A stretch of DNA of 64,000 bases. Origin: Anagrus nilaparvatae (lineage: Eukaryota > Arthropoda > Insecta > Hymenoptera > Mymaridae). The stretch covers positions 806,001-870,000 of the forward strand of contig JAKSXM010000142.1 in assembly GCA_022575985.1 (NCBI GenBank), given 5' to 3'. The position numbers were made by a program, and so were the translations under genes. Below are positions 1 through 62,004 of this stretch, one piece after another; within the stretch, counting starts at the first letter, position 1, and every line of letters starts with the position of its first letter. The notes below the pieces were generated by a model that was given only the letters and a program-made list of their open reading frames with translations, was not told the origin of the DNA and ran no database searches.

Positions 1-138
1 ATAAACAATCGAATTCTAGAAGCTCTGTTCCATACAGAAGTGTTATACAAAGCTATTAATTTACAGTAATTAATTTAATAATATATACTTGGTAAAAATT
101 TTAGAGTTTTAATTAGCTAAAGTTTCTACTCAGATACT

Positions 139-173
139 TATATAATATCAAAAAGCCATTTCGCTTGCGAGAA
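139..173 (-). promoter_or_regulatory. U6-type PSEA + TATA promoter-like element A
   Basis: On the minus strand, TTCTCGCAAGCGAAATG (173 to 157) is followed after 12 bp by TATATA (144 to 139). Motif, spacing and TATA box match seven other elements in this window. The spacing equals that known for insect U6-type RNA polymerase III promoters. A start about 29 bp past the TATA box would be near position 115. A five-T run at 98-94 would end a Pol III transcript after only about 20 nt, so an RNA product is uncertain. Confidence 0.5.
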
Positions 174-3100
174 AAGCGACATCTCGACAAAGAATTTTAA
201 TTTTTGAATGTATATACTATCAGTCTTGACTTTTAACCGAAATAAAATGAAAAATATATTAATTTGCACTACTTTTGCTAAATCTATGTCGGTACCATAC
301 AAAAGAACTGAATTAAAAATAGATTTTAACACATTTTAGCCAAGAATTAAAACTGCAAATACGATTTCTTATTCACTCGGTAACCTTAAAACAAACTAAT
401 TTTTTAAAAACATTATTTAAGTAAAGAAAAAGGGATAAATATTTTAGAAAAAATAATGACAAATACAACCGCATACTTTTTATTAAGCATGAAAAAAAAC
501 TCACGGTCGCTTACTAACATATTTTAATTTTCTTGCAAAAAAAAAATATTTCAAGGAGATGCTTCTTAAGTAAAGTTGCGTATTGTATGCCATGGAAGCT
601 GCTAATTTTTTTTTTCATAAAATATTTATTCATTGTTTGATTTTACTTATGAATAAATTAGTAAGTTTTTACTGTGTAAAAAAGGCTTTTACATGTGATT
701 TTATGAACAGAATTTTTATATTTTTAAGTCAAAAAAATGTAAATTTTTTATGTTTACGATGATTAATGAATTTGTTTTTGGTATTTAATTTATTTCCAAT
801 AAAAAATAATATGAATTATTACCATCATTTTTGATAAATTTTTGTGTTGACGCTTTTAATTCAGTAGTTGAAAATTTTTTTTATTTATAGTAAATATAAT
901 AGACGTAAGATGGATTAATTTAATAAAAAAACACAAACACAAAAGAATAACAAAAAAAATTCTTATGAATTACAGAAAAATTTTTTTTTTATTCATCAAT
1001 TGAAATTTTCTTATAATAGAAAGATACAGTAGAAATTCGAAACCAACGAAATTTCGTTTAATACCTCATTGAGTCCAAATAAAAAGATAAATAATTTAAA
1101 AAAGATGAATCATTTTTTTTTTTAGAACTACAAAAATTCTTTTTTTTCATTAATAAAAATGCACAAGCGTCAAGATCCTGAACGTACACACACCAATTGT
1201 TAATTTTTCTGTATTATTATGGTTTTTTTTTGAGTATATTCAAAAAAGATCTTATGTGTAAGTGTATGACATTGCACAAAAAAAAAATTTCGAAAAAAAT
1301 GTCTATTATTACGCTTGTCGCTTGAAGCCTCTTTTTTGGGTATAAAACATATTGTACTTTTTGTACCTTTTTTTTTTATCTTTTTCTAACACACGAATAA
1401 AAAAAAAGGGAGAGCAATTACAATTTCAATAAATTGCCCTTTGAGCGAAGGTGTAGGGTTTCTTATTCTCTTATGTGAAGAATAATCAACTTGTTACGTA
1501 CTTTTTTTTTTCAAAATTTTTTTTTTTGATTAAACACAATTTTTTATTTATTTTATAATAATGTGTACTTTTCACCTGTCTGGGTAAACATACAACTCGT
1601 TTTACACATATATATTTTAAAAGTAAATATTTTTCAAAAATATATCAGGCAAAAATTTCTAAAATTTACAAAAAATTAAATCAAGGTTATTTCCTTTATG
1701 AGATTAAATACTTGCGGGAGGCTGTATTTTATAAAAGTTTGTTTCCTTTTTAAGAGCACACGAGAATATGTAACGGGAAAAATTTGTCTTTTTTTTTATT
1801 TTCCTCGCGTGATTCTCCTTAAGGGTAAAAAAAAGAGATGAGAAATAATTCATGAATTTAATAAAAATAAATAATTCAGAGTTAAAAACTTGATTTTTTT
1901 TCGATAATTTTTCTTCTTAAACTAAAAAAAATTATTACATGCTAAAAAATTTTTACAAAATATTAAATTACATTTTTTTTTTTAACTTGTTTTTATGAGT
2001 AATTAACAAATTATATCTACATAGTAATTTTTTTAAAAAAAATTCAGAATTTCAGGTTATAATTTTTGTAACTTAACTTAAAAAATATTTATATATATAT
2101 AATTAAATTAAAGATTTTACCATAAAACAAGATAAAATATCTTCTGGCATTTTTTTTCTGAAATTTGATGATCTTATTTGTAGGTACAATAATTGATAAA
2201 ATCAAAAAAAGTGCTTAAAAAATTCTTTTTAAAAAAATTTGTAATAGTTATGGAATTTCAGTAAGCTCTTTAGTAAAAAAAATATCTGTTATAGTATTGT
2301 AATAATTTTTTTTCTTTTTTTAAAGGTTAATTTCATGGAATATGTTTTAAGAATTTATATTATAATGATTTACTTAGTTATACTAGTCCACCTTGCTTCT
2401 GTTCGAATCAGATAGCACTGTATGTAATATGCACCTGTTTCTAATTAAATGTATTTCTTGACACTTTTCACCGTCTACTCATTCGTTTAGCTTATTTTAT
2501 GCTTGTTTTTCTATATGTACCATTAGCTACTTGTATTATTGTTATTATTATTTTTTTTTTAAAGTGTAATTCAGGTTTTTAGATTGTTAATTAGTATTTT
2601 GAAGAAGACATGTGTACGCTAATAAAATTTATGGGTAAATTTTAGAGTTGTATTAGTTAATTGAGGAATTAAAGCACGGATAATATTTTTCATCACATGC
2701 GTCAAAAATTACCACTTTGTATCCGGCGAACGCCCATTTTTATTGCTTTTGATATAAAAACTATGTATAAACTACGGGGCAAAATATAGGGCGAAATATA
2801 GGTTAAAAAATAAATATTTTTTAGATCTTACCGGACTATTTTATATAAACAATCAATTTTATCAATTTTAATATTTTATAATCTTGAGATCTGATTCCAA
2901 AAGAAAGGGACCGTTGAAACTTAAGTTTTTAATGCGCTGTTTATAAGTTTTTTGGTCCTTTTTCTAGAGAACAGTTACATTTTCCACTATAGGTCATTTT
3001 GGCCAATTTTCTAATGTTTGAGTACTTGTAAACGAATAAAATTATCCTGTCGCTAGTACTTATCGTAGTACTTATATTTTTTGGTGCATAGGTTACAATT

Positions 3101-3515
3101 ATGTTGGTGTAACTCATTTTAAGGAAATTTTGGCCATTTTTTTAATAATCCGAGGCCCTAAAACAATAAAATAATTATCCTAAACAACGTCAATTTTGTG
3201 TTTAGTATATTTTGATACAAAAACAGCCCATTTTAGAATATAATTATATTGTATTTCTAGTACTGGTATTTGGTCTTTTGACCGTTACTTTTTCCGCTAT
3301 TGCCGATTGTAGTACATTTTTAAACAATTTATTACATTTTCTCGAACAAAATGCCTTGAAAAGAGCGAAAAATGAACGAAAAAAAAAAGCCCCAACAGTG
3401 ATCATAATATTTAATAATAAACATAATATTTGTTTGCAGAGAAAACATTAAAAGAATTGCTAAAAATATCAATAAATCCATAAATACAAATTTTCGAGTC
3501 AAGTTACCTAATTCT

Positions 3516-3550
3516 TATATAACCTTTAGAACTCATTTCACTTGCGAGAA
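3516..3550 (-). promoter_or_regulatory. U6-type PSEA + TATA promoter-like element B
   Basis: On the minus strand, TTCTCGCAAGTGAAATG (3550 to 3534) is followed after 12 bp by TATATA (3521 to 3516). The first ten spacer bases are identical to those of element C, so the two may be related by duplication. A start near 3490 would meet a T5 run at 3466-3462. Confidence 0.5.
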
Positions 3551-5741
3551 TAATTATAATAAAAATTTTCATTAATATTCATAGAAAATAAAAAACCTCT
3601 CATAACCAATGCAATTTTCTAGAACAAGATTTGAAAAAAGAAAAACAGTTAAAAAAATTACCATACTTGTAAATAATATTTACATATTTAAAACTCAGCA
3701 AATCATGTAAAATCAATCATAAACATTCGTATATAATTAAAACATTATATAAATAAATAAAATACTGTTATAATTTAAATAATCATCAAAAATGTCAGAT
3801 TTTTCCACATAATAATCTAATAAACAAACAATTTCATAATACTTCGTGCAATTACTAAAAAATATGTCATTATTATTTTTTTTTTCCCATAAAATAATTG
3901 TCTTATTTGTATATAATTGATTTTTTAATAAAAAAAATATTTGCACGACATTTAGTTTTTTTTTGAAACTAAAAAATTCAATTTCGTGATCATAAGAATT
4001 TAAATTTATTCAAAAAAATGAATCAGAGATACTTAATAGTTTTTTGATGTTAGAGAGCTGAGGTTTTATTTTATTTCTGTTCCGATGAGAAAAATATGCA
4101 TCGATTAGAGATGTTTTTTTTTTGTCAGTTTTTTGATTTCTTTATTTTTTATTTAAACCTAAAAAAGGGAACCAAAAAGAACTGGAATTTTATATATTTT
4201 TTAACCTTCTTTTTTGAAGCGATTAATTTTTTTTTTTAATTGGTATGTGCCTTAAAAAGTAAGATTTTAGATAAATAAATAAAAAAAATTTTAATATATC
4301 ATTCTGAAATAAATAATTTGTATTATTTAATTCATATTTTATGCATCAAGATAAATTTCTTTTTAACAAAATTTTTAACAAAAAAAAAATGTCAAAAAAT
4401 AAAGTACGTAAAACAAATTTTATTAATAAAATATTACACACTAACACATTTGTATTTAAGCTTTTTGATGATTGACACCTTTTTTTTGTGTAATATAAAA
4501 GAAGATTAGTCTACTCTCATTTTTTAAAAAAGATGGACCGCCTAAGTTGAAATATTTTTTTTTAAATAAAGAACACCGTTGTTAATTTGACATATTATTA
4601 AGATTTATTTTTTAACTTAGAAATTATTATATAATACAAAAAAAATATTTCTTTTTTGCTAATTATTATTAAAAAAAAGCGTTTTTTATACAGTTAAAGG
4701 CGTGTGCGTTTCATGCCTTTTGAATATTTTTTGTTGCAAATAATGTATTCATAAATATTTAACACTTTTTGAGATGAAGAATAATATTATTTATGCTTTT
4801 TAGTATTATTGCAAAACTGTCTAAAGTAATATGTATGAGAGAATATTTTAAAGAAAATAAAAAAATATTTTTTACGAGAAAATTTTAAAAAAACGATCGT
4901 CTGTAATGATAAATGACAATAAGACATTTTTTTAATCATAAATTTTACACCTAAAAATTGAAAAATGATATTTTTTTAAGGATAATGGAAAAATAATACC
5001 ATTTTCTTTATTAAATCACAACCACTGTTTAATTTTCTGAGAATCTTTTGTAAATTTATATATATTATGAATTATTTTTTCTAACCGCCATAAAATACTA
5101 ACAGAAGTCCATAATAAAATAACACAACATCCTATAACGACACTTGATCTGATTTTTGTGGTAAGAAAATAAAAAAAAGTTTTTTTTAAGGTTTCTTTAT
5201 TTTTTCCTTTTACTTTTTTTTAATCAATCATATTATAACGTCTAATTAGAAAATATTTTTTTTATCAATTATTTTTATGTTATGTAAAATAGGACGTTAA
5301 TTATATGATATGGAGAAAGAAAAATAATTCAATAATAAGTATGTTTGCTTATATGTATTTGTAATTACGAAATTAAAAATTACACAATTATTTATTTTTT
5401 ATTTAATCAAACTGTATTTTTTTATTATTTTTTTCAAAGATTTTTTTTTTATTAGAATTTACAATGTTGTACATACAGCATGTTGAATATTTATGATACA
5501 TTGCTGTAGTGTAAATAAGAATTACAAATAGAAATACCATTTTTTTTTATATTTTAGTTGAGAAAATTAACCTTTTGGCTATGTTGAGTGTATTTGGACA
5601 TTTGTGACTTCATCGGATTCAAATTTCCTTAAAAACCATTGAGTCAAGGACATATCCCAAAGTCATAATGCTTTTAATTCTTTTCAAAGTCCTTAAATAT
5701 CATTTTGTGCTATATGGAAGCTCAGGGGGCTGATTATGTAA

Positions 5742-5981
5742 ATGTATCATGTTTGCCGTGTGGTGCGAGGACATTTTATCATTGATTTTATCGAACATTT
5801 AGCACTTATGCACATCCCTAATGCTATATCTATTGTTTTCAAGAATAAGTTAGGTCGCGCGACGAAAATAGCGATTAGGTTGCTGGCAGCAGCTTATAAA
5901 ACAATGAAGAACACAGTGAACAAATTATACAATAAAGAGCGCATTGCAGAATTCAAAAAATTTGACTGTTCACACGAGTAG
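5742..5981 (+). CDS. orphan 79-codon open frame, unrecognised
   Basis: An ATG-initiated frame of 79 codons lies in a patch (about 5570-5960) that is richer in GC than the surrounding intron. The product begins MYHVCRVVRGHFIIDF and has a basic, helix-prone second half (RATKIAIRLLAAAYKTM). I do not recognise a family and see no signal peptide. It lies inside a fat intron on the same strand. It may be a fragment of an inserted element or a chance frame rather than a gene. Confidence 0.15.
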   Translation: MYHVCRVVRGHFIIDFIEHLALMHIPNAISIVFKNKLGRATKIAIRLLAAAYKTMKNTVNKLYNKERIAEFKKFDCSHE

Positions 5982-6194
5982 TTTTGTATAAATAAGGCGA
6001 CCAAATTCTATATCATAAATGTGTACAATATCTCTATATAACAAGATGCATAGCAATTGAACGAACCCAAAAACCTTTAGTTAAATTTAATTTATCTTAA
6101 ATAACAAGCTCAATTTGTAAGCAATTTTAATTTGTATGTTAAATAATGTTTATTAATAATTTTAATTTTGATAGATAATACAGATTCGAACTCT

Positions 6195-6233
6195 TATATA
6201 TATAGTCTTTAGAACTCATTTCACTTTCGAGAA
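6195..6233 (-). promoter_or_regulatory. U6-type PSEA + TATA promoter-like element C
   Basis: On the minus strand, TTCTCGAAAGTGAAATG (6233 to 6217) is followed after 12 bp by an alternating TA run (6204 to 6195). A start near 6175 would give a transcript of about 105 nt before the first T5 run at 6073-6069. This is one of the three elements with room for a sizeable Pol III RNA. The predicted RNA matches no family I recognise. Confidence 0.55.
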
Positions 6234-7123
6234 AAAATATAACATATAATTTTGAAGTACTTTTAAAAACTAAATCATTCGAAAATCTAAAAAAATATTC
6301 GGTAAATATCTGTTTTCAAACTTTTTTAATATTTTCACTGATTACTAATTCTGGCAGAATGTATTCAACTAAACAATAAAAAATTGAATATGAATTAAAA
6401 AAATACAAATTTAAAATATAATAATTAAAAAAAATTGCATTTCACAAATATTTCTTTCCTTACTCTTACTTCTCATTCTGCATACGAAAAAAAATCGTTT
6501 TAGAAAAACATTTTAAAGCTTCACATGATTACTTTTTCGTTTTTAATAAAAAAATATAATTGGTTATTTTTTATCAAAGAAAAAATTCAATATAAATAAA
6601 AGAAAGAAAAAAAAATAAGCAACCACACACAAATAATATAAAAGAAAACAAATTTTATATATTTAAAATTGCTTATATAAAAATATCTTTGCAAAATGAA
6701 TTATGTAAATTTTTTTTTTGGGTGACTTTTTTCTCTTACTTCTTTTTTTTTTTTTAATGCGACCGATAAATAATCGGTATATAAGAGAGAAATTTATATA
6801 AAATAAAAAAAATCTCTGCGTGTGTTCGTTTGTTTTTGAATTAATCTTTATAATAAAATATATAAAAAAAGCCCTTTTTTTAGGGGGGGGGAAGAACCAA
6901 ATATAAATAAGAGAATTTTTCTTTCCTCTAGAGAAATGTGCGACTTCATTAGTGGTATTATCGTTTCAATAATATTCAAAAAAAACAGGGGGGATTTTTT
7001 TTTTAATTTAACAGAAAAAGAATTTTATGCATTTGAAAAATATTATATTTTGACATTTACAAATAAGAATATAAAACTGTCTTAAATAAATAATTAATAA
7101 CAAATTTTTTGAATTTATTTCAG

Positions 7124-10100
7124 GTTTATGTAAATATAATAGATAAAAATGACGTTGCACCAAATTGGGGTCCAGGGCCATTTAAGTACGAAATATCAGA
7201 AGAATCACCAGCAAATAGTATAATAACGATATTGAAGGCATATGATCCAGATACTGTTGGTAACATTAAATATTCGATTTTACCAAATCATTCAAAAGAA
7301 TTACCTCAAGATTACGAAGAAAATGTTATCGATGGTTCAAGGTAAATAATTTTATAATATTATCTAAGTAATTCAGTCAAATCACGGGGGTAGAAAAAGG
7401 AGAGGGTTTGGAAAGACAAGAGAAAAGATCCACAAATATTTTTTTGAGTTCCTGATTCCGAAAATTTTCAAACTGCCCTAAATTATCAAAAAACACCCAT
7501 TTTCAATGTAGTTTTGATAATTTAGGGGGTTTTGACAAATATCGTATGAGAAAAACCTGGATTTTTGGAATCAGTGACCCAAAAAAACCCTTCTTTCTCA
7601 TCTTGGTTGCCTAAAAACCGTGATATGACAAGAGTAAAATGTTGAGCTGCTTTTAAGTAGTGTATGGTTGACCGAAATTTGGGGCACCCAAGCCAAAAAT
7701 CGTACTTTTTTTGGCTTTTACAAATTTGTAGCCAGGTAAATTTTCAATTCCCTCTGTGCCTGCAGCCTTTTTTCGAAAAAGTTTCCGTCTTTACCTGAAA
7801 CTTGATCCGAGATTAATAAAAGTTTAGTTTTTGGTAAGGGTATCTCAAATTTCGGGAATCCATACACCCAAGTTGTTTAAACTTTTATTTGTTTTGTGTG
7901 AAATTACCTAGTACAATTTATGTATGTTTTTTGTATTTTATTTTCAGATCAACTGTAACAAGTAACCCATTTAATATCGACGAATCAACTGGTGTATTAA
8001 GAATTTCTGAAGCACTCGATAGAGAAACTAAAGAAACTTACAATTTAAAAGTTAGAGCAGACGATGGTTTTCAACATTCTGATGTGACATTAACAATCAC
8101 GGTATGTAATTTTAATTATTTACATAAATCTTCAGCTACTCTTTATAAAACTAAATTTCAAAATATTTTTTACCCCTATAAACCCGAATAAAAAAAATTT
8201 AAGCAATCAAGTATCGAAAGTAAAAGTTTCAGTTACATCAGTTCCGCAGGTACAATTAATGTTAACATAAACCTGTATCAACTACTTGCTCTTGACACCT
8301 TAATTTTTTACATACTAAAAAAAAAGGTGTATAAAAGGAAGCATATAATGTAACAGCTTTGCAATGGCTTCGATCAATAAACAAATGGTTATAAACATAT
8401 GGTTTAAAAATTATATACGGGTCTTTATTTTAAGCAACCTGCTCAAAACAGATTCTAATATCAAGTTGTTATCTTAAGACAGACTGAAAAATGTTAAGAT
8501 AACACAAACCGCTATATGAGTGAAATAAAGACGTGTAAAATAAAGCTTATTTACTTTTTTTTTAAAGTGTCTTAAGCTCGGTGAGAATAAATTGACCGTG
8601 ATCATTCAATCTTATAAGACATGTTCTTATCTCTAATTGAAAAAAGATATCAATCACCTAGTAAGAATAAAATATTTTAAGCTCTTTTTATGCATAAAAA
8701 GTGACTTAGCTGTTTTATTAATTGACTGCTTTCTAAAAATTGTAAATTCATCTTAATTTTCTGAAAGTTACTCAAATATTTTTTTTACAAAAAATATATG
8801 AGATCATACGTTATCTCATTGCAATTAAAAAAAAAAGTTATCCAATCAAAGAAAGATACGAGGTGGCTAAAGTATTTATATCATCCTACGCCTTTTTATA
8901 TAAAAAGGATGAAATGGGCCGTCAAATAATTACAAGCATTAAATATCTCGATAACGAAGTGGTTTTCCTTGAAAAACTAAAGAAAATGATTGAATACCAT
9001 CTATCATTGTTTTTTTTATTATTGTTTGAATTTATAATTGCAATCACAAATGAAAGTATCACTAACGAGAGATATTTAAAAAATTTTTATTGATTGATAT
9101 CTTTTAAACGAGTTGTTTTAATGCTGATAATTTGTTTATGAGATTTAAATTTGTAATCAGTCATTTTTGGAGGATAATGAGAATTTATGACATGGTTTTA
9201 TTGAAATTTTCTTTAGTAATTAGATCAATTTTTGTACTAGATTTTTGATTTATTGTTAGGTTTTTTTTGTTTCTCGAAAGTGAAATGACTTTGAGTTATT
9301 ATATAACTGGGTCAGGTTCATTCATAAATTTACCATTATAAACTTATAGCACAATATTTAAAATTAACTATTACGAATTAAATATGTCTAGTATTTTTGG
9401 ACAAAAAAAAAATAAATTCCATTAGAGAATTGAATTAATTTTTAATTAATTATAATAATACTGTATATAAAATTCCCTAGCGGATCAACGAAATAAATTC
9501 TTTTTCTTCTTTACATTACCAGTTCGAAAGCCAAAGCTAACATTAAAAACTACACCATATATAGAAAAAACCAAAGATTAAACAAGTACAAACAAAAATA
9601 ATAGCAACTTTCAAAAAAAAAAAATCTTATTTTCTATTTTATATATCAAGAAAAAAGAAAAGAAAACTAAACGTTGCCATAATATAAAAATTGCTTATAG
9701 ATAAGCGAAAAAAACTGCATTACAGTTCGTGAATGACCCCTAAGGATCTCTCACGACCTTTTTTTTTTGTATATTATCCTATACTATTAAATATTTTTTT
9801 TTATTATAACAAAATATATAACATGGATATCAAAACTAATGAACTATATAATATATTGTGTATTATAAAATCCTTTTCTTCTTCTCTTTTAGTATTTCTT
9901 TTATTGTGTATCGAAAAATTAAACAGGTTTTTTTTTTTATTTCAAAATTTATATCTCTGAGAATCATCGTCATTGATTGACTAGACGTCCTTATGGTGTA
10001 TGAAAAAAAATTATTAAAATGCTCGTCATATTATGGATATACGTAATATTATAAATTGAAAATAAAAATATGAGAGATTTCGAATGGATTATTATTATGG

Positions 10101-13100
10101 TATCATTCTTAAAAAATTTTTTTGATGCTGATGGGTTGTTAATAAAAAAGCTACTTTTTTTGTTGTTGTTGAATGTACTTTGATATTTTTTATTTCATAC
10201 GAATCAATCATTATTTCAATCGTTTTTCATAATTATTGGGGTTTGTTATGGATGATGGTTGGACTTGGTGTTGATACACACATTTTTTGGGCACTGAAAA
10301 TTAACCATTTTGTGGGAAATTAAGGTCCTTAAACTTTCAGAGTTCTTTATAATATTTTTAGATAATTCTTTTATTTGTATATTATTACCCTGAAGGTTAC
10401 ACTGAAAAAAAATGTCGTTTGCCAGTACCAGAAACATTCCTGAATTCTTCTCGATTCCTGAATTTCAGTTGTGGCAGTTAGATTTTTTTTTAATTATTTC
10501 AAATAGCTTAAAACTTAATAAAAATTAAAAATAAAAGGAGTTTTACTTACTTTACCAATGCGAGAACCGCGGCATGGTGGTAATTGAAATATAAAATTAG
10601 GAACCAAAAAAATTTTTTCTAACTTTTCTTTAGGTCTTATGCAATTTCCAAGTATCAAAAAGAAAAAATAATTTTCGGCTGCCACAATCGGAATTCCGGT
10701 AACTGCAAACGAGAAACTGCTAGCACTGACCGGAAATCCGGTAACGGCAACCGGATTTTTTTTCAGTGTATTAAGTACAAAGGGCATAAGAGCTTCGGTT
10801 CGGCGTGGTCACTAGCACGAGTTTCTCGATGAGTGCTCAGTGAAGCTGGAGATGCATGTTCACGCTATAGAAATATTATCCCCATAATGCTTAAGATACT
10901 TTTGCTTGCCTAAGCTTAGTAAAAATGCCGTAAAGTTTTAAACCTGGGAGGGCAAAACTAAATTTTGTTTAACTATCGTATTAGTTAGCACCAAAAATTA
11001 CACAGTTTTTATGAAATTAAGACCTTGGAAAATTCAAAGCAAAAAAATTTTTGCTAACCTAGATGACAAAAATTTTTTTGTTATTTTATTACATGAGACT
11101 AGACATAAGAATTTAAGCGTATTCTCCAAAGTTTCATATTTCTTCTAACTCTTAGTTCAGTTTCTCAAGCCCTTTTTCTCATAATTTTGTGTCAATCAGA
11201 AAATAGTTTCTAATTTTACAAGAAATTGCAGATATATCCGAGTTATTTAAAAAATTCAAATCCACGATACCAAAAACCAATTCATTTCGCCTCAATATGC
11301 AACATAAAAAATCTTTAAAATGTTATAGTTAACAAAACAATTTCCAAATAGTCCTAATTTTACAAAGAACCACCAATTCTATGAAATTATTAGTATCAAA
11401 CATTTATTCCTAAGTTCCAGGTGGTATCATTTAAAAGGAATTTTACATTTCTTCGTTAGCCATCAAAAATCCGAAAAATAAAGCAAATTTTTAAAATAAC
11501 TCCAATTCCATCTCCTACCCATTAAAAAGCGTCATTTTAATCATTTACCAAAAATAAAAAATCTACATTAATAACAAAAACTTGCATATTAAACATAAAT
11601 TTAAATAAACAAATACATTAAAAAACTCCTACTATAAACGATACATAAATTCGACAAGTAAAAAAGACTGATAAATAAAAAAAAAAATGCATCTTTCGAA
11701 CTTCAAAGTCGTCTCCCGTCTATATACCATCAGTCGTCTTTCTAAAACCCTTTTTTTTAAAAGAAAGAAAAGGAAAAAAAAAGGACACGCGAAATAAAAA
11801 AAAAAGGAATATAAAAATCTGCGCGCGAGAAAGGAGGCCGACTCGTAAAAGTTTTGATTTACCGCGAGAGTTTTTTAAAAAAATATGTCGATATATTTCT
11901 TTTTTCTTTGTTATATTTATTTATTTTTGGTATACAAATTTTGTTATTATTATTATTATAAATAATAATAATAATTAAGGCTAATCGAATTAATTACTTA
12001 TTTTTGTTTTAAAAAATGACAGAAAAGGAATTTTTAATAAATTAATGTGTCTCTTTATACGTGTCTGTCGCAAAAAAATTCCTTCTTTTCAAGAGAGACG
12101 TTTTTTTTTGTCTCTTCCTTTAAAAATCTTCTACCTTTATACTGTTATATTATTGCTACTTTTACTGATATATATTTCTATCTCTCTTTTGATATTTGGT
12201 TTCTCGAATGCCAAACTCCGATCAAAATCGTTTCCCGCTGAGACACATTATGGCTTTAGCAAAACAGAAAAACGTCAACCCTTAAAATTTCGTGAGAAAG
12301 CCCAGTTAAAAAATTTTTTAAACATAAATAAATTTTTTGATCGGTTATAAAATAAATATTTTTTTTTTTAGGTAACTGACGCAAATGACAACGCACCAAG
12401 TTTTCAATCAAACGTATATTCGTTTGATATATTTGAAAATTTAACAAGAGGCAAGAGTATTGGCAAAGTATCAGCAATAGACGTGGATTCTGATGGACCT
12501 AATAGCCAACTAAGTTATACACTGATATCTGATTGGGCAAATGATGTATTTTCCCTTAATCCAAGTACCGGCGTCTTTACTCTTACCGCTGCTTTAGATT
12601 ATGAACAGGTAAAAAAAAAAAGCCAAGTTTTTATTTTTTATTATCTTTATTTAAACGATCAAAATGAATAATTACGAGTTTTGTTTAAACTGACATGTAT
12701 AATTTAATATCAGTTAAGATATTTTATTATAATAAAGTCGCGATTGTCTCTCAGTTCCCCCCCTTTTTTTTTTATACTTTTTTAAACGTCAATAAACTCT
12801 CATTAATTATTTTTTTCTTGTACTTTAACAATAATAATAATAATTTTTCTTTAACACACAAGAGTTAAAAATTAACTTCTTTTCAAAATAACCTAAACTA
12901 TTGTCACTCATTTATTTTTTTTTTCTTTACCGACAAGAAAAAAAAAAGAGCGTAAAAGTCAAAATGAAAAGGATTGTATTCATTTATTTAACACTTTTTT
13001 ATGAATGAACGTGTGACTAATACACAAACGTATCTTATATTTTTTTGAAAAGACTTTTTATGACTTTTTAGAAATTGTTAAAGAGAGAGAGAAAAATATT

Positions 13101-16100
13101 TTTTTTCCGTAAAATTAGTTTTAAAAAAGTAATTTATTACAAATAAATTTCTATGAATTTTTACTGTAATTCGAATAAATTAATTATTTAAGACTGTCAA
13201 TAGATGGCACTTAAACTCGCAATTAAAATGTCAGATGAAAAATTCACATAAAATATTTCTTTATTTCACAATAAAATAAAGATAATAATAAAGATCAATT
13301 TTATTTACTGCACACTACTAAAAATATATAAATTATTGATAATAATCAACTTACACATACATCCAAGGACTTTATTTAATACAATAAAGAAATGATTTGT
13401 AACATAAATTTAATATTCTTATAATCTAATATATTTTATTACGATTGTGTGGGTGTACATGTCATGATATTTCGATTATTAAATTATGAGAAAAAATATA
13501 AGTAAATATTTTTATATAGCGTGTTTTGTTATATTTATAAATATGAAGCTGCATAATTTTATACCCCCACTATTAAAGGGTCCTCAAGCATGTATTAAAA
13601 AAATAAATCTTTACTTTTTTATTTTCATTCTAAAAAAGATATTTGAATTTCAAATTTCCGTGAGAAAGTACTTAAATAATATACAGAGAGCGAATAAGTA
13701 GTGAATTTTTCTTATAATATTTTAAAATTATAAAAAACTGTCGAAAGTTCAAAAAACGATTTTTCTTGATCGACACGCTTAGATTAAAAAGTTTCACGTG
13801 AATTCTCTCCTTATTAAATGTTGTTATTAAGGACATTTGACTGATCTGAAATAAAAGATATCTAATATTTTATCTATATTTTAATGACATTAAAAGTAAT
13901 AGTTTATGTAGTAAAGTACATAAATTCCGTTATTATTTAAATAATATATCGTGCATTTAAACAATAGCTTGCAGAAAAATACAAACATTTTTTATTTAAT
14001 ACGATATACTTTCAAATATAAATTATATGTGTAATTGTAATGTTAAAAAATCAATTAATTTAATCACTTGATGTGTTAGTAAGTTAAGATATTTGTATTA
14101 ATGTTTTAATTAGGATTTAAGTGATTAAATTATCAGTTTTTTATCTGTTTTAAATTTTAAGTGATGAATTGATTTGTTGGCTGATTAAATGTAATTTTGG
14201 ATTGATCTATTTAAATTAAAGATGTAAAGATTAAATCGTAAAATTAACAGAATTGTCGGTTTTAGTTGTTGTCAAAATTACAATTTTTCAGACTTAGTTA
14301 TATACGGAAACTATATAATAATACATATGTATAATTTTTATTTTTCTCGAAAGAGAAATGGATTTTCTGTTCTATATATAGGAGTTGAAGTACAAGCTTA
14401 TAATAAATTATAAATAACATGTCTTGCATATAGGCTTATACTCACTGATTGATATTGATATTCTCTTAACTTTTTTGAATTGTTGTTTCGGAATTAAGTA
14501 TTAATAATTTATTATTACCTTTTTTCTTTTGTATTGAGGAATAATCGCAATAGGTTAGACTGTTTAAACCGTTTCATTTTAAAAATTACGCTTTTGTTAG
14601 CAATGAAAGAATTTCTCGTGACAGATCCAATTAACTGACACATTTAAAATTTTAAAATTTCTCGAAAGAGAAATGTATTTCCGAATATATAAAAGAGATG
14701 CTTGACAACTAATAAAATTCGAATTACATTTGCATACGTTTTTATCCTTACTTTTGCCTAAATTTATTATCTAAACTTTTTTGAATATTAAAAACTTACT
14801 TGCGTTGTAGTGTGATTCCATTGAAAGAACTCAGGGTTATTTGAAATTCAAAATTGTGATTCTGTTTATAGTATAAGTTAATACTTTCATTTTTTGAAAA
14901 TAGTTTTTATATACTCGGAATTTGTTAAATAGTTTTCTGGTCAGCGAACAAAAAGCAAGCATTTGTCGTCCACTGATGTTGAAAAGTCGTATTCGACCCT
15001 AGGCCATATAAAAAATATGACCCTAATCGCAGTTTGCAACTTTTATATAAACATTTTTCATGTTTTCGAGATATTTGAGTGTATCATTTAAAATAATTCA
15101 CTCTGTACAAAAAATATTCTGAAACTCGTGTTAGAAATATTTATTAAACCAAATGCGACTACAGTCCCTCCGTGCTAGGCGCCAAGGCGGCCCTATAATC
15201 CGCGTCGAATTTTCCAAAATAAACATTTTTAGGAATCGTTTAAGAATGTACAATAAATGAAGTTTAAGTTTAAATAATACCAAAAAATATATGTGTATAA
15301 TGTAGTAATATATTTTTTGATAATACAAACTACAATTCGTACGTTTAGAAGGACCAAATATTGAACATTAAAAAAAAAAATTTCTAGTAAAGTTACTTTA
15401 TTTCGCAAGTCACCCATGGATTAGTTGGTTCCTTTTGCTTTTTTACTACATGTAGTAAAAAAGTAATAGGAACCTTAACATTTCTGCAGAAGCTAAAAAA
15501 CTCATGTTAATCCAACAAAATTCCTATCAAATATCAAAGATCCATTCAAAGCAATAAACTCGCCAATTATGTGCGGTAAAATCACTATTTCAGTTATAAA
15601 ACGAGCATTTAAACAGTAAATTCACATATCAAGATATATAGTAATGCACATACAATTCTTAAATTAATTACATATATAAATTTAATTTAATATAATTTAT
15701 AACCTCAAAATATTTTTAAAACTTTAATTAACTGTATATTATTTTAAAAAATATTTCGTTTACAAAAAAAAAATTATTTCTGAATGCGCTTATTAAAAAA
15801 AAAGCAGTAAGTAAGTAAGGACATATATGAAACATAATATATAAAGAAAAACTTTCAAAAGTCAAAAAAAAAAAAAAAATTCCACATACGATTATTTATT
15901 ACGCGTATTATTTCGGACTTATAAGTTATATTAAGATTGATATATGTCGCGAATGACCAGAGAATATAAAAAGAATTAAAAATTGCAACAAGTAAAAAAA
16001 ATTTTTTTATATATAAATGTCTCGTACAAAAAAAGAGTTTGATTATAATTCGCGAACGTATATTATTTTGTAATGTGTGTTGTAGTAGTACCAAATGTTG

Positions 16101-19100
16101 TACTTGAAAAAGAGAGCAAAAAAATTTTTTATAAATGAAAGAAGACAGAAAATTTGAAAAAAAAAAAATGTTTTTAAACTCATTAATGTCTTTTCTTATA
16201 TATTTTGATATGATGTGATTAAAAGAAATTTATTTCAATTATAATTTACACAACAACAACAAAAAGATTATTATTATTATTACCACAGGTCATTTAATCA
16301 TTTATAATTTAATGTGTGGTCTAAATTGTTATATTTTTATAAAAGAAAGATATAAATTTTTTAAAATGATGGAAAGACAATGTGATGAATTTTTTATTTA
16401 ACAATAGAGAAAATAACGGAGTTAATAATTTTAAACTAAAATTATTAGGTTAGACTAAAAATTCTGGTTCTTATAGAACCCCTCATTTCGATAAATGCCT
16501 TCTCGCGATTTTAACGTTGTGATTACTACTCTCTTTCTTTTTTTAAACTTTTGCGTGAGTTTCGTGACGATCTTTCTAAAAAATAAGTGGAGAGAAGTCT
16601 ATATTTCTTTCTGAAAAAAAAAATAAATCGGATGCAGTCGATAATATTTTAAAACCTTCGAACAAAATAAAAAAACTAGTATTTAAAAAAATATAAAAAT
16701 AATTGAGTAGCTTTTATATACTTAAAAAAAGTTTTTTTTTTATTTTCGAACCAAGAAGGAACCAAAAAATCGCATATGTGTGTTTTTTAGTAGATGCATG
16801 CTCTTATTATTATTATATAAAATAAAAAAGTATCGATGTTTTTAAAAAAATACCACAGTGTAGTAAAAAATATTTTTTTTAAATATACAAAAACCAAATA
16901 AAAACCTCCCGGCTTTTGGCTGCTGTGTGTGTATTACTAATACTTTTTTTTAGCGATGTTGGTATAATTATATTCAGGGTATAAAAATGGTATTTTGTTT
17001 TAAAACAAAATATATATGTTCCACCTGCTTTTTTTGTAAAAATCAAGTTATATTAAAAGAATCCACAGGGCAAATATTTTTATTAAAGTAATATTATGCA
17101 TATAATAATATTTTTAAAGATAACAAAAATTATCATTTTTTTAAGTATGCAGCTGTCAAATTTTTATTTTAAGAAAAATATTTTCATTACTGAAAGGTTT
17201 TTTTGCAGGTTTTGGGGGTGTGGGAAATTTTTGAAATTTAGTGGTTATTAGGTTTTGATTCGTTGTTTTTGATTTATTTGCGAAAAAATTAGGAAATATT
17301 GGATACAAATCGTAGTTTTAATAAATTTTTAGTAAGCTTATAAAAAAGCCCAAAATCTAATTTTTTTTTTAGGTATCCCCAAAAAATAATTTGAAATTTA
17401 CAATAATTTTTCGTAAATTACTATTTTTTTTCTAGATACTCCCAAAAAATAGTTTTGAATCCAAAAATTTTTTAGTAAATTTACAGCTAAAGATTGAGAA
17501 TTTTTTATTCCTATCGAAAATCCCCTAATTTTTCGTACATAGCAGAAATATTTTTTTATTCCATAAAAAAGCTTGATAAGTGACCATTCGCTTACATCTC
17601 AGTAAAAAACTGTATATTTTAAATAAAAAATAAATAAACTCTTAATTTTTCAAAAACCAACTTTCCCATTAACCGACAACACACCAATAAATTAACATAT
17701 TAAACGTTAAATACATGGCGCTATAATAAAATTATGGCATAAATATTTCTAAATACTTTAACGTATTAATAAAAAAATCATATTATTATAATTATTATTA
17801 TATTTTAACACATATATTAAACGTTTATTAAATAACATTTTAAATATGTTTATATATATTAAGTTAAAAAACCAGTTACACATACATTCAAAGAAAAAAT
17901 AATAATCGTGACGATGTAGTTGCAATAAATTATATTTTTATTTAAAAAAAAAAAAACTAAGGTGTGTATATTTTATAAAAATGTCAATAACAATTTTCTA
18001 TATTTTATAGGTTCAGCATTACATATTAGTTGTACAAGCAACAGATTCTGGTATACCAAATTTATCAACGACAGTAACAGTTTATTGTAATATCATTGAT
18101 TTGAATGATAACAAGCCAATATTTAATAATTTCAAAAAAATAATCGATATTTATGAAAATTTAACAATTGGAGAAAGTATCATTAATTTAACAGCATATG
18201 ATTTGGATTCAAATGATAATTCGAAATTGACGTATTCTATTATCAATGGTGATGATAATAATGATTTTTTAATAATGCCTGATAATGGCAATTTATTAGT
18301 CAATAAAAATTTGGATAGAGAAATTAAATCACAATATAATTTGGTTATACAAGCTAATGATAATCCGGAATCTGAATCTGATAGGCTTAGTTCTACTGCT
18401 CAGGTATGATAATTTATTTTTTTGATTTAAATACTGTAGATTTTGGGCAAATTGATAAAATTATTAATTGTTTTACAGATAACGATAAATTTATTGGATG
18501 TTAATGACGAATCACCAGAATTTATAACAAGCAATGAAACTTGGATATTAGAAAATTCACCAATCAATACATTGATAACAACGATAAAAGCTATTGATAA
18601 AGATGAAGGTAGAAATGGTTACGTTGAATATTACATCGAAAACTTAAATAACGATTACTTACCATTCACCATTGGTAATATCGATGGTTTATTACGTGTT
18701 AATGATAAATTAGATCGTGAATTATCATCAAATTACACAATAAATATCATAGCTAAAGATCGTGGCGAACCACATCCACAATATACAAAACAATCATTAA
18801 AAATCTATTTAATTGATGAAAATGATAATTCACCAATATTTTATCCAAGACAATATTCATCAAATATTGCTGAAAATGCAAGTATTGGTGCTAATATACT
18901 GCAAGTTAAAGCAACTGATCGTGACGAAGGTGAAAATGGACGTATCCGTTATAGTATTATCAATGGTGATGATAATCTTGAATTTATAATATCTGAAGAT
19001 ACTGGAATTATCAGAGTATCAAAAAATTTAAATTACGAAAGAAAATCACGTTATAATTTGATAATCAAAGCTGAAGATTCATCCGATGATAATAATAAAT

Positions 19101-22100
19101 ATGATAACGCTGAAGTTATTATCAATGTTATTGATATTAATGATAACCCACCAGTATTTCAAGATTCACCATATTTTGTTTATGTTATGGAAAATATGAT
19201 ACCACCTAAAAATGGATTTATCAAGCAGGTAATTTGTTTTTTCTCACAATTATAATTGCATAACTTGCTGTAGTATTTAATTATACACGCAAACGAAAAA
19301 TTCCTTATTTTTTCTGGCAAAACTAATTGTCTAACTTTTTTGCATTCAATTCAAAATTATACCCACAAGAATTGCTTACAACAGACCGGAAATGCTTCCA
19401 GGCTCTTTGCTACTTCTTTATAAAACGAGATAAAAAGATAAATATAAAATCGACCACTGATAAATTATTTGCATGAAAAGAAATTTGCCCTTTACATAAC
19501 CTAAAAAAATTTAAATTTTGACTAAAACTAAAATATTCATAAAAATAGCTCGAAGAATTAAAACCTCAAGTATTTTTAAGAATCTTGATTTAAAACTTGA
19601 TATGAAAATCAAAAAGGGTGCATGAACCGATTAATTTTTAAAAAATCGACGGGTTTATATTTATGTACTTCAGGCGCTGTACTTAAATTTTAACTGTAAT
19701 ATAATAAAACTTCTTTTTTTTTCGGTTCAAAAAAATTAAATTACTTACGAAGTTATTTAAAAAGAAAAAGAACTGAAAAAAACTACACGTAAAATTTTGT
19801 ATTATAAGAGCTTGTTACATTTTTTAAAAAATTTTTTATTAATAATTATATTTATTAAAAATACGTTAATATTTAAAATATAATTTAATGCGTTATATAG
19901 ATAAAGATAACATTTTTTGTTGCCTATAGGGCTAAAAATATGCAAATTTTACATGCATATTACGATGTTTCAAAATAATATTATGAGAAAAAATATATTT
20001 TGTGAGATAAATAAACTACTTTTATTTTTGGTAATTATGTATTTGTATTTGATAATAAATTTTGTACAGAAACTACAGTTACACGTTTACTATATTGTTA
20101 CATTTATCTTTAATATGCAAATTACTTTTTTTACGCCTGTAGGTTTAAAATTGTAGTTTTTGGTTACGCATTAGTGAGTAATAATTTTTTTTTGAAACTG
20201 TTTTCAATTTTTAATCTCATAATAGATCTAAAACTTATTACTCGAAGCTATTCACTGTTAATTTTTTTATCTTAGTTTTATTTTCAATAAATACCTTCAA
20301 CTAATTTTTGAATACTAAAATTACAATTTTAATAATAAAAATCTATAACCTTTAGATTGGTAAATTTACATAAATGCTCTTCGTTTATATCAAAAAATGT
20401 TAATCAAAAAGAATAATTCAAAAAAATTTTTGTATTCTCGAAAGCGAAATGTATTTCCAATACTATATATTCAAGATTGCAGTTGATTTACTTGCTTATG
20501 TCATTTTATTAAATATATTAAACACTTCTAATAATTTTATTGTATAGTTTTCCTATGAGTTTATGACATGTGACAAACATCAATTATATAGTATAGATAA
20601 TACATTTCTCTTTCGAGAATAAAAAAGGTTTTAGTTTTTCGGCTTCTTAACTTATTATTGTAGTTTTGACCATTTACTCGATTTGGCTTTCAAATAGTTG
20701 CTTAAAATATAAAAGCAATGGGTAAAATATCTCATTTATAATTTCAATACCAATGATAATTCAAACGAAGAATTATTTAAAATGCCAAAATACCCAAAAA
20801 ATCATTTTCTCACAATATAAAACAACCAAAAAAAACCTCAATATTCAGCCTTCAGCCAAATAAAATATTATTTGCATAAAGAAAAATATGTACATTTGAA
20901 TAACTGTATTTCTCAAAAAAAAGCTAATTTATAATTATTATTATTATACCAAAAATAACCAAAAAAAAAGAGAAAAGTAGTTTAATATAATAAATGTGTG
21001 TAAATTTAAAAAAAAATATTAAAATATTTTTCACATCATTTTTTTAAAAACATTGTAATACATAAAATTAACATATTTTTTAGGGCCCTTTAGCTATATC
21101 AAATAAAAAAATAATTCTTTATCTATACATATTACCCATTAAAATTTTAAATATTCATGAATTTGTAAAAAATAATTAGTCCAAAAATATTTTACTCAAA
21201 AATATACAACAAGCCATATAATAATGAAACAACATTTTTATTTCGTGTAGTTTTTTATATAAATATGAATGCACTTCTTTTTTTTTCTTTAATTTTTGCA
21301 AGCATGTACTTTAATGAAAAGGAAGTCAAGTAAAAAAGAAGTTCTATATAGACAGATATATTACAGTTAAATTTTTTCAACTGATCATGATACAGTAAAA
21401 AAAAAACTGGTTTCTCTGTTTAAAAAAAAAAAAGTTCTAAATTTTTGGGCTTCGTACCAAAAAAAAAAAAGCGAATTTTTTTACAGAATTTATAAGTTTA
21501 CTATCCGGATATATTAAATTACAAAAATATTTTTTATAGGTAAAAGCATTCGATGCAGATAGTCCACCATACAACGACCAAGTACGTTATTTTATAAAAG
21601 AAGGTGATACTGATTTATTTAAAATAAATGCAAGTACTGGTGACATTTATTTATTAAGATCATTAGATAGAGAATCTGTTTCTGAATATGTTTTAACACT
21701 CGTTGCTATGGATACTGGTAAGTTTATTTATTATTAATTATCAAAAAATTTTTATTATGGAATTTTAATTAAGGAAATATAAATTCAATTGTATATTTTT
21801 TTCAAGTATTTATAATTAACATAAAAATATTTCACATATAATTGTCGTGAAAATACAAGGGAAAAAATTATTGCCAATTTAAAAAAAAAACTTTTTTTAT
21901 ATTCTCTAATGGAAATCAATCTTTAAAAAAAAAATTAACATTGATATCTTTTACTCTCTTAAAAAAAAAGGTTGAAATTGGGCAGTCACCCGCACATGCA
22001 TATTCATAATATATCCTCTCCTGAGAGATAATTCGTCTGCGTCCAATATCTCATACAAGAAATTTTTATGGGACTCTTTTTTTCTTATTTCTCATTCTCA

Positions 22101-36529: not shown

Positions 36530-37430
36530 AATCTGGACGCTCAAATTGCGAAAATAACAAAAACACCCCTTTTAAGGGTATTTTTAGCTAATGTAGGAGT
36601 ATAATATTAATAATATAGCGGCCCAAAAAATCTATATAGGTATATCCTAGATTCTCAAAGTGCGAAAATAGCAAAAACACCCTCTTTTCGGGTTTCTTTT
36701 CTTTTTTGTAGTGTTAGCCAATTTAGGGGTGAAATTTTAATTATTTATAAAAAAGAAGTCGGACTTCTTGAATAGCGACCCAAAAAACCTGTATGGGCAT
36801 ATCCTGGACGCTCAAAGTGCGGAAATAGCAAAACACACTCTTCGGGAGTAGTTTTAACCAATTTAGGGGTGAAATTTTAATTATTTATGAAAAATAACTT
36901 GAAATTCTTGATCAGCGACCTAAAAAACCTATATGAGCATATCCTGGATGCTAAAAGTACGAAAATAGCAATTACACTCTCTTTTTGGGGGTAGTGTTAG
37001 CCAATTTAGGGGTAAAATTTTAATCATTTATGAAAAAGAAGTCGGAATTCTTGAATAGCGGCCAAAAAACCTATATGGGCATATACTGGACGCTCTAAGT
37101 GCGAAAATAGCAAAAACACACTCTTTGGGGGTAGTTTTAACCAATTTAGGGGTGAAATTTTAATTATTATTTATGAAAAAGAAGTAGAAATTCTTGATCA
37201 GCGACCCGAAAAACTCGTATGGTGCAAATCTGAGCGCTAAAAGTGCGAATATCTAAAAAAAACCCTCTTTTGGGGGTAGTTTTTGCAAATTTAAGGGTGA
37301 AGCCCCAATTCTTCTGCCAAATGATCCCAATTTTCGTGTTCAGCGACCCAAAAAACTTATAGTACAGCAAATCTGGTGTTCGCCAGTGATTATACAACCA
37401 AACTCGTATTTTGACTTGAGTATATTATCA
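36530..37430 (+). repeat. tandem array of ~143-bp units (AGCGACCC family)
   Basis: Six units are marked by the phrase agcg(a/g)cc(c)aaaaaa at 36617, 36773, 36914, 37057, 37200 and 37342, spacing 141-157 bp. Each unit also carries a phrase like gtgcgaaaatagcaaaaaca and one like aatttaggggtgaaatttta. The array ends in a word like gtattttgacttgagtatat. Its inverted form (tatactccagtcaaaatacg) starts a related array at 54.4 kb, so this is probably the family's terminus. Confidence 0.7.
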
Positions 37431-48100: not shown

Positions 48101-48374
48101 ATAAATAAAACTAAAATAAGATACTAAAAATATTTATATATTTTGTAGATGCTAAGTAGTTCTATGTATGAAATTAATCAGAAAAATAAAAAAAATTAGA
48201 ATAATTAAAAGTTTCTAACCTTTGAAAACTATTGAAGAAATCAAAAACATAATCAAAATCTTCAACATTTTTGTAGGATGATCCATCATTTCTTTTTTTT
48301 CTTTTGTTTTTATTAATGGTCGCAAAACACGAATTACTGTTCACATGGTAATCTGTATTACTGTGTTTAGACAT
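45170..48374 (-). CDS. ankyrin-repeat protein with PRANC/F-box-like C-terminus
   Basis: Two exons, 48374-48220 and 48053-45170, join in frame across a 166-bp intron and give 1,012 residues. Exon 1 encodes a polar start with a basic cluster (NKNKRKKRN, about residues 22-30), a possible nuclear signal. From about residue 85 to 800 there are roughly eighteen ankyrin repeats (for example NGDTPLHIAAKKK, GRTPIHIAYYNED, GNTPLHNLCLDQL) with longer insertions between some. The last ~120 residues are not ankyrin. They contain LAMKDFRFLIKTNLPDLCLS followed by IIFKYLSNRDIINFV, the pattern of PRANC domains, which resemble F-boxes and recruit SCF ligases. PRANC-ankyrin proteins are known from poxviruses, Wolbachia and parasitoid wasps. 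The host-type intron and A/T-rich codons indicate a resident insect gene. The substrate is unknown. Confidence 0.8.
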
Positions 48375-61632: not shown

Positions 61633-62004
61633 AAAAATAAATAATATGAAAATATTCTCTTTCCATGTTTTAAATAATGGAATTTCATTGCTTGTTTATT
61701 GGAAGCATAATTCCTAGATTTAAAACCATCGATTTATTTCTATTTTACAATTTAGAAAAACGATCAAGTTACCCTCAATAGGCATCTTTTGATTGATTTT
61801 AGCAATCTTGTGGGGATTTTTATTAAATATTTAAAATTTCATGGTCAATTAACATATAAAATATTTCGTTTATCCACAATAGACAAATTTTAGTAACTTC
61901 TAACAGTTTATTCGGAATTCTCCTTGATTATATGTTCTTAGGCTCACTTAACACTAACATGATATCCAGTTTTACCAGATATGGACCAATCACCCACAAT
62001 ATAA

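Follow-up and report, generated by a model that had tools for sequence, protein, structure and literature searches.

More than 2000 snRNA-like promoter elements, a candidate promoter class of short non-coding RNA genes in the genome of Anagrus nilaparvatae

The window, i.e. the whole 64-kb stretch of DNA that was analysed, contains eight elements of a 17-mer and a TATA box which probably belong to a distinct class of SNAPc-type promoters, in which each element would serve as core promoter for a gene of one short non-coding RNA. The 17-mer occurs in 2355 exact copies in the 488.7 Mb genome, compared to 1 copy for the reversed control. No description of a promoter class of this kind was found in the literature searched. 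If transcribed, the elements would represent an insect small-RNA gene family of more than 2000 loci with an apparently undescribed promoter class, and the snRNA promoter machinery would have been co-opted outside nematodes for the mass output of diverse RNAs. Multiplication of the loci, polymerase choice and the upkeep of varied bodies would then become directly testable.

Elements in the window

An earlier note, made from the letters of the window, had listed eight copies of the 17-mer with 15 of 17 positions invariant, each followed by a TATA box after exactly 12 bp. All eight were recovered as exact 17-mers by direct motif matching (Table 1), and mean and largest number of matches were 0 in 100 shuffles of the window. 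The invariance of 15/17 positions was confirmed across the eight copies, and the TATA box starts exactly 12 bp past the 17-mer in 8/8. The note was also right that the remaining window is free of copies and that conservation ends after the TATA box. A search with up to 3 mismatches gave only four further matches, all of them with 3 mismatches, and the eight elements score 42-51 bits with a weight matrix vs. 10.6 bits for the next-best window site. Pairwise identity is 0.93 within the motif vs. 0.29-0.33 past the TATA box, the latter being close to the random expectation of 0.305. Although all eight window elements share a T at offset -6, this base was rejected as a further motif position, the wider set showing no conservation of it.

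The elements belong to the region of a Fat-like gene, lying upstream of its cadherin exons or between them. The proposed intronic location of all elements fits the cadherin exon positions; for elements 1-3, whose upstream exon lies outside the window, it is presumed because the exon near 7.1 kb begins mid-protein. Clustering inside the window gave p ~0.002 for the range occupied, this range having been picked post hoc.

Table 1. Promoter-like elements of the window and regions predicted to be transcribed.
Feature	Position	Strand	17-mer	Spacer	Sequence after spacer	Remark
Element 1	137..173	-	157-173 (PSEA-like)	12 bp	TATATAAG	
Element 2	3514..3550	-	3534-3550	12 bp	TATATAAG	
Element 3	6197..6233	-	6217-6233	12 bp	TATATATA	
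Element 4	9271..9307	+	9271-9287	12 bp	TATATAAC	
Element 5	14344..14380	+	14344-14360	12 bp	TATATATA	tandem with element 6
Predicted transcribed zone, element 5	14403..14476	+				predicted from ~60 nt past motif start to end of first T-run ≥ 5
Element 6	14659..14695	+	14659-14675	12 bp	TATAAAAG	
Element 7	20435..20471	+	20435-20451	12 bp	TATATATT	convergent with element 8
Element 8	20583..20619	-	20603-20619	12 bp	TATATAAT	
Head-on overlap of predicted transcripts, elements 7 and 8	20494..20560	.				predicted from positions

Number and clustering in the genome

The genome scan for the 17-mer, which returned the 2355 exact copies, also revealed clustering among the first 100 copies listed on contig C1. 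Of these, 16 lie in the first 21.13 Mb, 60 between 21.13 and 23.94 Mb and the remaining 24 between 24.77 and 27.42 Mb, the end of the listed part; their index of dispersion is 14.7 vs. ≤ 2.3 in 5000 simulations. The elements form Mb-scale clusters on the listed part of this contig. The former picture of elements scattered in the introns of one gene holds for clustering and for the use of both strands, but was too narrow given the number of copies across the genome.

In sampled DNA, the TATA box was found at the identical offset in 93/99 exact copies, and it is in place in 7/10 copies with 1-2 mismatches. Twenty 10-kb loci contained 33 exact copies and 10 with 1-2 mismatches. Motif plus TATA box was absent from viral contigs, as was the U6 core, and gave one match in bacterial and archaeal genomes (Bacteroidales record L001), which was taken as chance.

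Comparison with U1 and U6 genes of the same genome

The elements were compared to the best-scoring 9 of 12 U1 genes found and to 10 U6 genes, a caveat being that the U1 copies are mutually paralogous, and likewise the U6 copies. The 17-mer itself is present in 0/10 U6 and 0/9 U1 genes. When the U1 genes were scored with the matrix for the 3' half of the elements, the best fit lay at a constant distance in 9/9 genes with an implied motif start at -59, exceeding the 95% null in 8/9 and the 99% null in 1/9. For the 5' half, only 1/9 U1 genes gave -59 as the optimal position, under the 95% null, and 3/9 pass this null in a different register, -66. In U6, the 5' half is best placed at -64 in 9/10 genes (over the 95% null in 5/10 and over the 99% null in 1/10), and the 3' half reaches the 95% null in 1/10.

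The distance from CG to TATAA is 31 bp in 9/10 U6 genes, the tenth being without CG there, and the distance from CG or CA to TATAA is 27 bp in 7/9 U1 genes, of which 8/9 also have a TATAA in this genome. For the elements, 27 bp were found in 50/92 and 25 bp in 27/92. Judged by these matches, an element appears to be composed of a U1-like 3' half and spacing and a U6-like 5' half. Transcription of U6 starts 30-31 nt past the TATA start, and T6-T7 follows the gene. Unlike the U1 and U6 genes, which carry TAGRTGG within 110 bases upstream in 8/9 and 8/10 cases, respectively, the elements are mostly without it (2/44 within 160 bases upstream).

The designation as snRNA-type promoter elements is supported, whereas the narrower term 'U6-type' is not: the species' own U6 PSEA differs in 10/10 genes, and its CG lies 31 bp from TATAA in 9/10 vs. 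27 bp in 50/92 elements. The agreement with the 12-bp rule for insect U6 came about because the 17-mer, rather than the 21-bp PSEA, was taken as the starting point of the count. According to the part of PMC4227766 considered here, U1-type promoters of insects consist of PSEA and PSEB and U6-type promoters of PSEA and TATA, PSEA positions 5-8 are most conserved across insects, and 3'-half bases depend on whether a gene is of the Pol II or the Pol III kind. The elements resemble such promoters in their two halves, in the spacing and in an equal predicted start distance, but differ in that the halves are combined, no snRNA follows downstream and more than 2000 copies exist.

Downstream sequences and T-runs

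For the downstream analysis, 92 elements were used, 85 of which are from one contig and most of which were chosen for carrying the exact motif; element 1 was excluded from the genome profile, having fewer than 240 bases downstream. After removal of 8 near-copies, downstream bodies were alike in only 7/4186 pairs (E<1e-5) and upstream flanks in 7 pairs (E<1e-4), in accordance with the claim that each element precedes a different sequence. One of the seven body pairs is the convergent pair of the window, in which the alike stretches include each other's promoter.

The numbers of T5 and A5 runs were 24 and 47 at offset 60-120 vs. 65 and 25 at 120-180 (Fisher 1.4e-6), and T5 runs per element per 20 nt amounted to 0.087 (0.058-0.123) at 60-120 and 0.304 (0.196-0.402) at 120-140, with bins set after the profile had been viewed. 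Sense-strand depletion of T5 over ~60 nt past the predicted start, followed by a jump, would be expected of short transcripts. The asymmetry is reversed at offset 300-400 (T5 41, A5 77), which counts against the explanation preferred below and for which we offer no explanation. For the window's eight elements alone, the first T5 past the predicted start is located as by chance, and several of them contain T4 or T5 within the predicted body.

No favoured start base was detected at offsets 52-69 of the 92 aligned elements and no initiator either, and a set of 57 of these elements had likewise shown none. Past the TATA box, base composition changes from a GC-richer to an AT-rich stretch, the GC-richer part preceding the predicted start. 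The 101-nt bodies of the window's eight elements showed no unusual folding compared to shuffles (z -1.36 to +1.58). Neither a tRNA nor an Rfam match above the gathering score was found in the window, and two weak matches to miRNA models in window positions 1-22000 (E 0.91 and 4.5) were taken as chance.

Proposed explanation and choice of polymerase

We infer SNAPc binding, transcription, RNA length, selection and the polymerase as follows. SNAPc would bind the 17-mer as PSEA and, together with TBP at the TATA box, would initiate transcription ~59-60 bp from the motif start. The short RNA would end in T-rich DNA ~60-80 nt past the start. Selection would keep the promoter and the transcribed part may vary freely; therefore, more than 2000 loci would yield mostly different RNAs. 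The genes would be arranged in Mb-scale clusters and introns, and would have spread at least partly by duplication of ~110-330 bp units. RNA polymerase II is slightly favoured over III because the 3' half and the spacing copy U1, the U1-like geometry and the Pol III-like T-run pattern giving opposite hints. Besides these opposite hints and the reversed asymmetry at offset 300-400, the missing start base, the ordinary folding of the window's bodies, the missing Rfam match in the window and the rarity of TAGRTGG count against this explanation.

Alternatively, the elements could be U6-type genes of RNA polymerase III, each driving a short RNA which ends at a T-run. The TATA box of almost all exact copies, the 5' half common to U6, the T5 runs scarce for ~60 nt past the predicted start and enriched beyond, and the similar start distance and terminal T-run of the U6 genes would all suit such genes. 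Yet the 3' half of the species' own U6 is different, the CG-TATAA distance of U6 is 4 bp longer, TATAA is found in U1 as well, and T4 or T5 interrupts the predicted body in several window elements. Moreover, the polymerase is set in flies by the PSEA and not by the TATA box, as stated in the part of PMC4227766 considered. We regard this reading as doubtful.

Similarity to piRNA loci and other known systems

The analogy to nematode 21U-RNAs drawn in the earlier note is fair with respect to organisation. As described in the part of PMC6436959 available, nematode loci likewise number thousands, lie in Mb clusters or introns, and combine unique downstream sequence with a motif that goes back to the core promoter of snRNA genes. 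The elements, whose small RNAs are predicted, differ by a TATA box at fixed spacing, a stricter motif, the insect host and the lack of a fixed 5' T or YRNT start at offsets 52-69. A true 21U-like piRNA system, in which short capped Pol II precursors are trimmed to Piwi-bound RNAs, would account for the shared organisation and for a GC-richer stretch followed by an AT-rich one, but is unlikely: neither T nor any other start base is fixed in the 92 elements, the GC-richer stretch precedes the predicted start instead of following it, and piRNA loci of P. sambesii are described in the same part of PMC6436959 as being without a TATA box.

An independently built 21U-like system of the insect, with a promoter made from snRNA promoters by joining a U6-like 5' and a U1-like 3' half, thousands of loci in Mb clusters and introns, a different short RNA from each locus and RNA diversity as the product, is conceivable, albeit speculative. 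Its bodies would evolve faster than promoter and upstream flank; a faster divergence of the body than of the upstream sequence was seen in 7/8 pairs on C1 but in only 2/3 window pairs, with values near null, and was not retained as a result. As a guess by analogy to nematode 21U-RNAs, the function might be a diverse repertoire of guide or silencing RNAs.

The mammalian 38A/38B PSE/TATA Pol III units are comparable in being intronic, in part antisense to the host gene, and in producing unrelated RNAs; the accounts of PMC3509611 and PMC3472747, as far as available, give a loose consensus with a 10-base PSE and a spacer of 35 +/- 25 nt, compared to the motif with 15/17 invariant positions, the exact spacing and the clusters of the elements. 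Hymenopteran telomerase RNA has a type 3 snRNA promoter likewise driving a non-spliceosomal RNA (PMC9841428). Most insect genomes are reported to contain thousands of PSE-plus-template-like sequences; these are computed telomerase RNA candidates and are not called a gene family in the available part of PMC9841428.

Possible duplication of elements

The elements could also be a dispersed repeat, i.e. mobile or duplicating units of ~110-330 bp which carry an snRNA-like promoter by chance, spread without function and decay. Seven paralogue pairs align across the promoter, starting at -25 to -290 and ending at +35 to +162, C1 harbours, at places far apart, three near-identical divergent pairs whose bodies are conserved, and adjacent window elements resemble each other more at variable promoter positions (permutation p 0.013). 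Weakened copies occur as well (the 10 vs. 33 exact copies in twenty 10-kb loci). Against a decaying repeat, decay is uneven, as sampled copies are alike in the promoter and mostly not in bodies or flanks, the TATA box is retained in 7/10 weakened copies, and weakened copies are absent from the window. Alignable sequence beyond the promoter, as expected of a mobile element, was limited to the seven body pairs and seven upstream-flank pairs given above. A flanking repeat as origin of the window's eight copies was rejected, since conservation stops after the TATA box and the bodies are unlike. Overall, a functionless repeat seems rather improbable. Transcript-free binding sites of SNAPc or another factor, serving as chromatin marks or boundaries, would agree with the lack of an RNA family match and of a conserved body, but are very improbable, as the fixed TATA box and the strand-asymmetric T-runs from near the predicted start would be unexpected.

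Individual loci in the window

For the preferred reading as promoters of short RNA genes, the predicted start of element 5 was set by analogy to U1 and U6 of the same genome, and its first T5 is at +68. The body of element 5 is alignable to that of element 6 up to a common AACTTTTTTGAAT; this likeness (p 0.002 per pair, ~0.056 after 28 pairs) is only suggestive. The head-on overlap of elements 7 and 8 might, judged by the positions, possibly give rise to double-stranded RNA. The spacer of element 3 resembles that of element 2.

Number and distribution of the elements

The 17-mer TTCTCG(A/C)AAG(A/C/T)GAAATG, which forms the element together with a 12-bp spacer and a TATA box, was found 2355 times (1149 + 1206) in the 488,676,385-base assembly, and the control pattern, read backwards, once. 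The mean density over the genome is 4.8 copies per Mb; with eight copies against 0.31 expected per 64 kb from this mean, the window itself, at 806001-870000 of contig C295, is therefore a dense spot. Places were listed for the first 100 of the 2355 copies, all on contig C1 (40.5 Mb) and reaching as far as 27.41 Mb. Of these copies, the first 21.13 Mb hold 16, the stretch 21.13-23.94 Mb holds 60, 23.94-24.77 Mb holds none and 24.77-27.42 Mb holds 24. Their index of dispersion is 14.7, versus a simulated maximum of 2.3.

An earlier note had placed the eight 17-mers and TATA boxes of the window, and all positions proved exact. It had also stated that likeness ends past the TATA box, which agrees with an identity of 0.29-0.33 beyond the box among these eight (0.305 expected); outside the 17-mer and TATA box, the copies are unrelated to one another. 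No 17-mer occurred in any of 100 shuffles of the window (GC 26.5%). The eight elements score 42-51 bits with the weight matrix and the next-best site only 10.6, hence weakened copies are absent from the window.

Constancy of the promoter and of the bodies

C1 loci fetched by place and the window gave 109 candidates that had ≤ 2 mismatches, with two positions left free, and a downstream stretch of 240 bases or more. The TATA box is at the identical place in 100 of these, i.e., in 93/99 exact, 5/6 one-mismatch and 2/4 two-mismatch copies, whereby the sampled loci were mostly picked for holding the exact motif. Within the twenty 10-kb loci alone, TATA is present in 30 of 33 exact copies and in 7 of 10 weakened ones. 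Of the six exact copies that lack TATA, three read TATT or TACT at that place. After removal of eight near-copies, 92 elements remained: 85 from C1 and seven of the window's eight, element 1 being left out because its downstream sequence was too short. The box reads TATATA in 65 and TATAAA in 26 of the 92. Within the spacer, T is preferred at offsets 19-21 (counted from the 17-mer start) and A at 25 (57 elements), and these preferences are present in U1 genes, too. The bodies, i.e., the stretches downstream of the promoter, are alike at E<1e-5 in 7 of 4186 pairs; one of these is the convergent window pair, in which each stretch includes the other's promoter.

Comparison with U1 and U6 genes

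All ten U6 genes found in the same genome and nine of 12 U1 genes were compared; the three lowest-scoring U1 genes, whose start was not located, were left out. The U1 copies are paralogous among themselves, as are the U6 copies, thus neither set is independent. The 17-mer was not found within 110 bases upstream of any of the 19 genes. The element matrix was split into a 5' half (offsets 0-10) and a 3' half (offsets 11-22). The best place of the 3' half implies a motif start of -59 in 9/9 U1 genes (above the 95% null in eight, above the 99% null in one), and the 95% null was reached in 1/10 U6 genes. The 5' half has its best place at -64 in 9/10 U6 genes (above the 95% null in five, above the 99% null in one); in U1 it falls at -59 in 1/9, below the null, and 3/9 surpass the null in a different register, -66. 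The distance between the CG place and TATAA is 27 bp in 7/9 U1 genes (25 bp in one, one without TATAA) and 31 bp in 9/10 U6 genes, the tenth having no CG there and being one base off. The elements have 27 bp in 50/92 and 25 bp in 27/92.

The designation "U6-type" therefore failed the very comparison with U6 genes which the earlier note had named as its test, since the 17-mer is found in 0/10 and both 3' half and spacing differ. Judged by sequence, the 5' half of the elements is U6-like, and their 3' half and spacing are U1-like; we hold this combination to represent a distinct putative promoter class.

The motif TAGRTGG lies within 110 bases upstream of 8/9 U1 and 8/10 U6 genes (loci L042-L051 and L098-L106) and is perhaps a candidate distal promoter element.

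Downstream signature and predicted transcripts

Runs of five T (T5) or five A (A5) on the sense strand were counted for the 92 elements in bins fixed after the profile was viewed: T5 24 versus A5 47 at offsets 60-120, and T5 65 versus A5 25 at 120-180 (Fisher 1.4e-6 against 60-120). Shuffled bodies have a T5 mean of 35, the observed 22 being below all 500 shuffles, and A5 runs exceed shuffles (47 versus 37). T5 density per element per 20 nt goes from 0.087 up to 0.304 at 120-140. The T-excess persists to about 280 (T5 79 versus A5 48 at 200-280) and flips at 300-400 (41 versus 77), for which we have no explanation. GC is minimal (0.16-0.20) at 60-120. This profile fits predicted transcripts whose start lies near offset 60 and whose ends lie from about +60 onward. 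We hold that the elements are putative promoters of a large predicted family of short-RNA genes under SNAPc.

Two known systems come closest: the 21U loci of nematodes (PMC6436959), to which the earlier note had likened the clusters, and the intronic PSE/TATA units of mammals (PMC3509611). The 21U loci resemble the putative promoters in their number, in the origin of the motif, in being clustered and in having unique bodies; they differ in that the TATA box and the free start base belong to the insect elements. No start base is favoured among the 92 elements, which counts against a 21U-like reading.

Paralogue pairs

Alignment limits were counted in seven of eight C1 pairs. On its upstream side, the alignment over the promoter reaches to between -25 and -290; downstream, it stops at +35 to +58 (four pairs) or at +123 to +170 (three pairs). 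The L093/L094 and L017 pairs have further repeats in common farther out. For L015/L092, identity is 0.90-0.93 upstream, 0.94 in the promoter, 0.69 in the body and at null past +140. In 7/8 C1 pairs, likeness is lower in the body than in the 60 bp upstream, a result favoured by the choice of pairs mostly by upstream likeness; L016/L097 is the exception, and the L011 and L013 pairs are nearly equal. The same was found in 2/3 window pairs, with values near null. Neighbours within the window are more alike at variable promoter positions (p 0.013), their bodies no more alike (p 0.69).

Host gene and further features

The elements of the window lie between cadherin exons of a Fat-like gene or upstream of such exons. 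Among the matches listed, the best named relative of the Fat-like protein, not the top-scoring match, is from a stingless bee (73%), and those of the F-box protein are from bumblebee and sweat bee. The window also carries, besides the F-box gene, an ankyrin and an odorant-receptor gene. All best named relatives among the matches listed are hymenopteran, the ankyrin protein's being chalcid wasps, and the source is accordingly taken to be a hymenopteran, perhaps a parasitoid wasp.

Coordinates of additional features
Contig	Position	Feature	Remarks
Window	20435-20619	Convergent elements	Facing, 185 bp apart; 48-nt arms 85% complementary; predicted transcripts overlap
Window	36708-37301; 51817-52208	Two tandem arrays, 140-bp period	Units have stretches alike
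Window	45170-48133 (-)	Ankyrin-repeat protein, 987 aa	Best named relatives among matches listed: chalcid wasps
Window	62004-63782	55-bp satellite	~32 copies, 90% matches
C1	5.39, 12.14, 13.87 Mb	L018, L019, L020: near-identical divergent element pairs, far apart	142 bp between listed match starts; bodies conserved; multicopy unit, unlike most other elements
C195	6.94-7.00 Mb	L045-L050: six of ten U6 genes	Packed in ~61 kb, both strands
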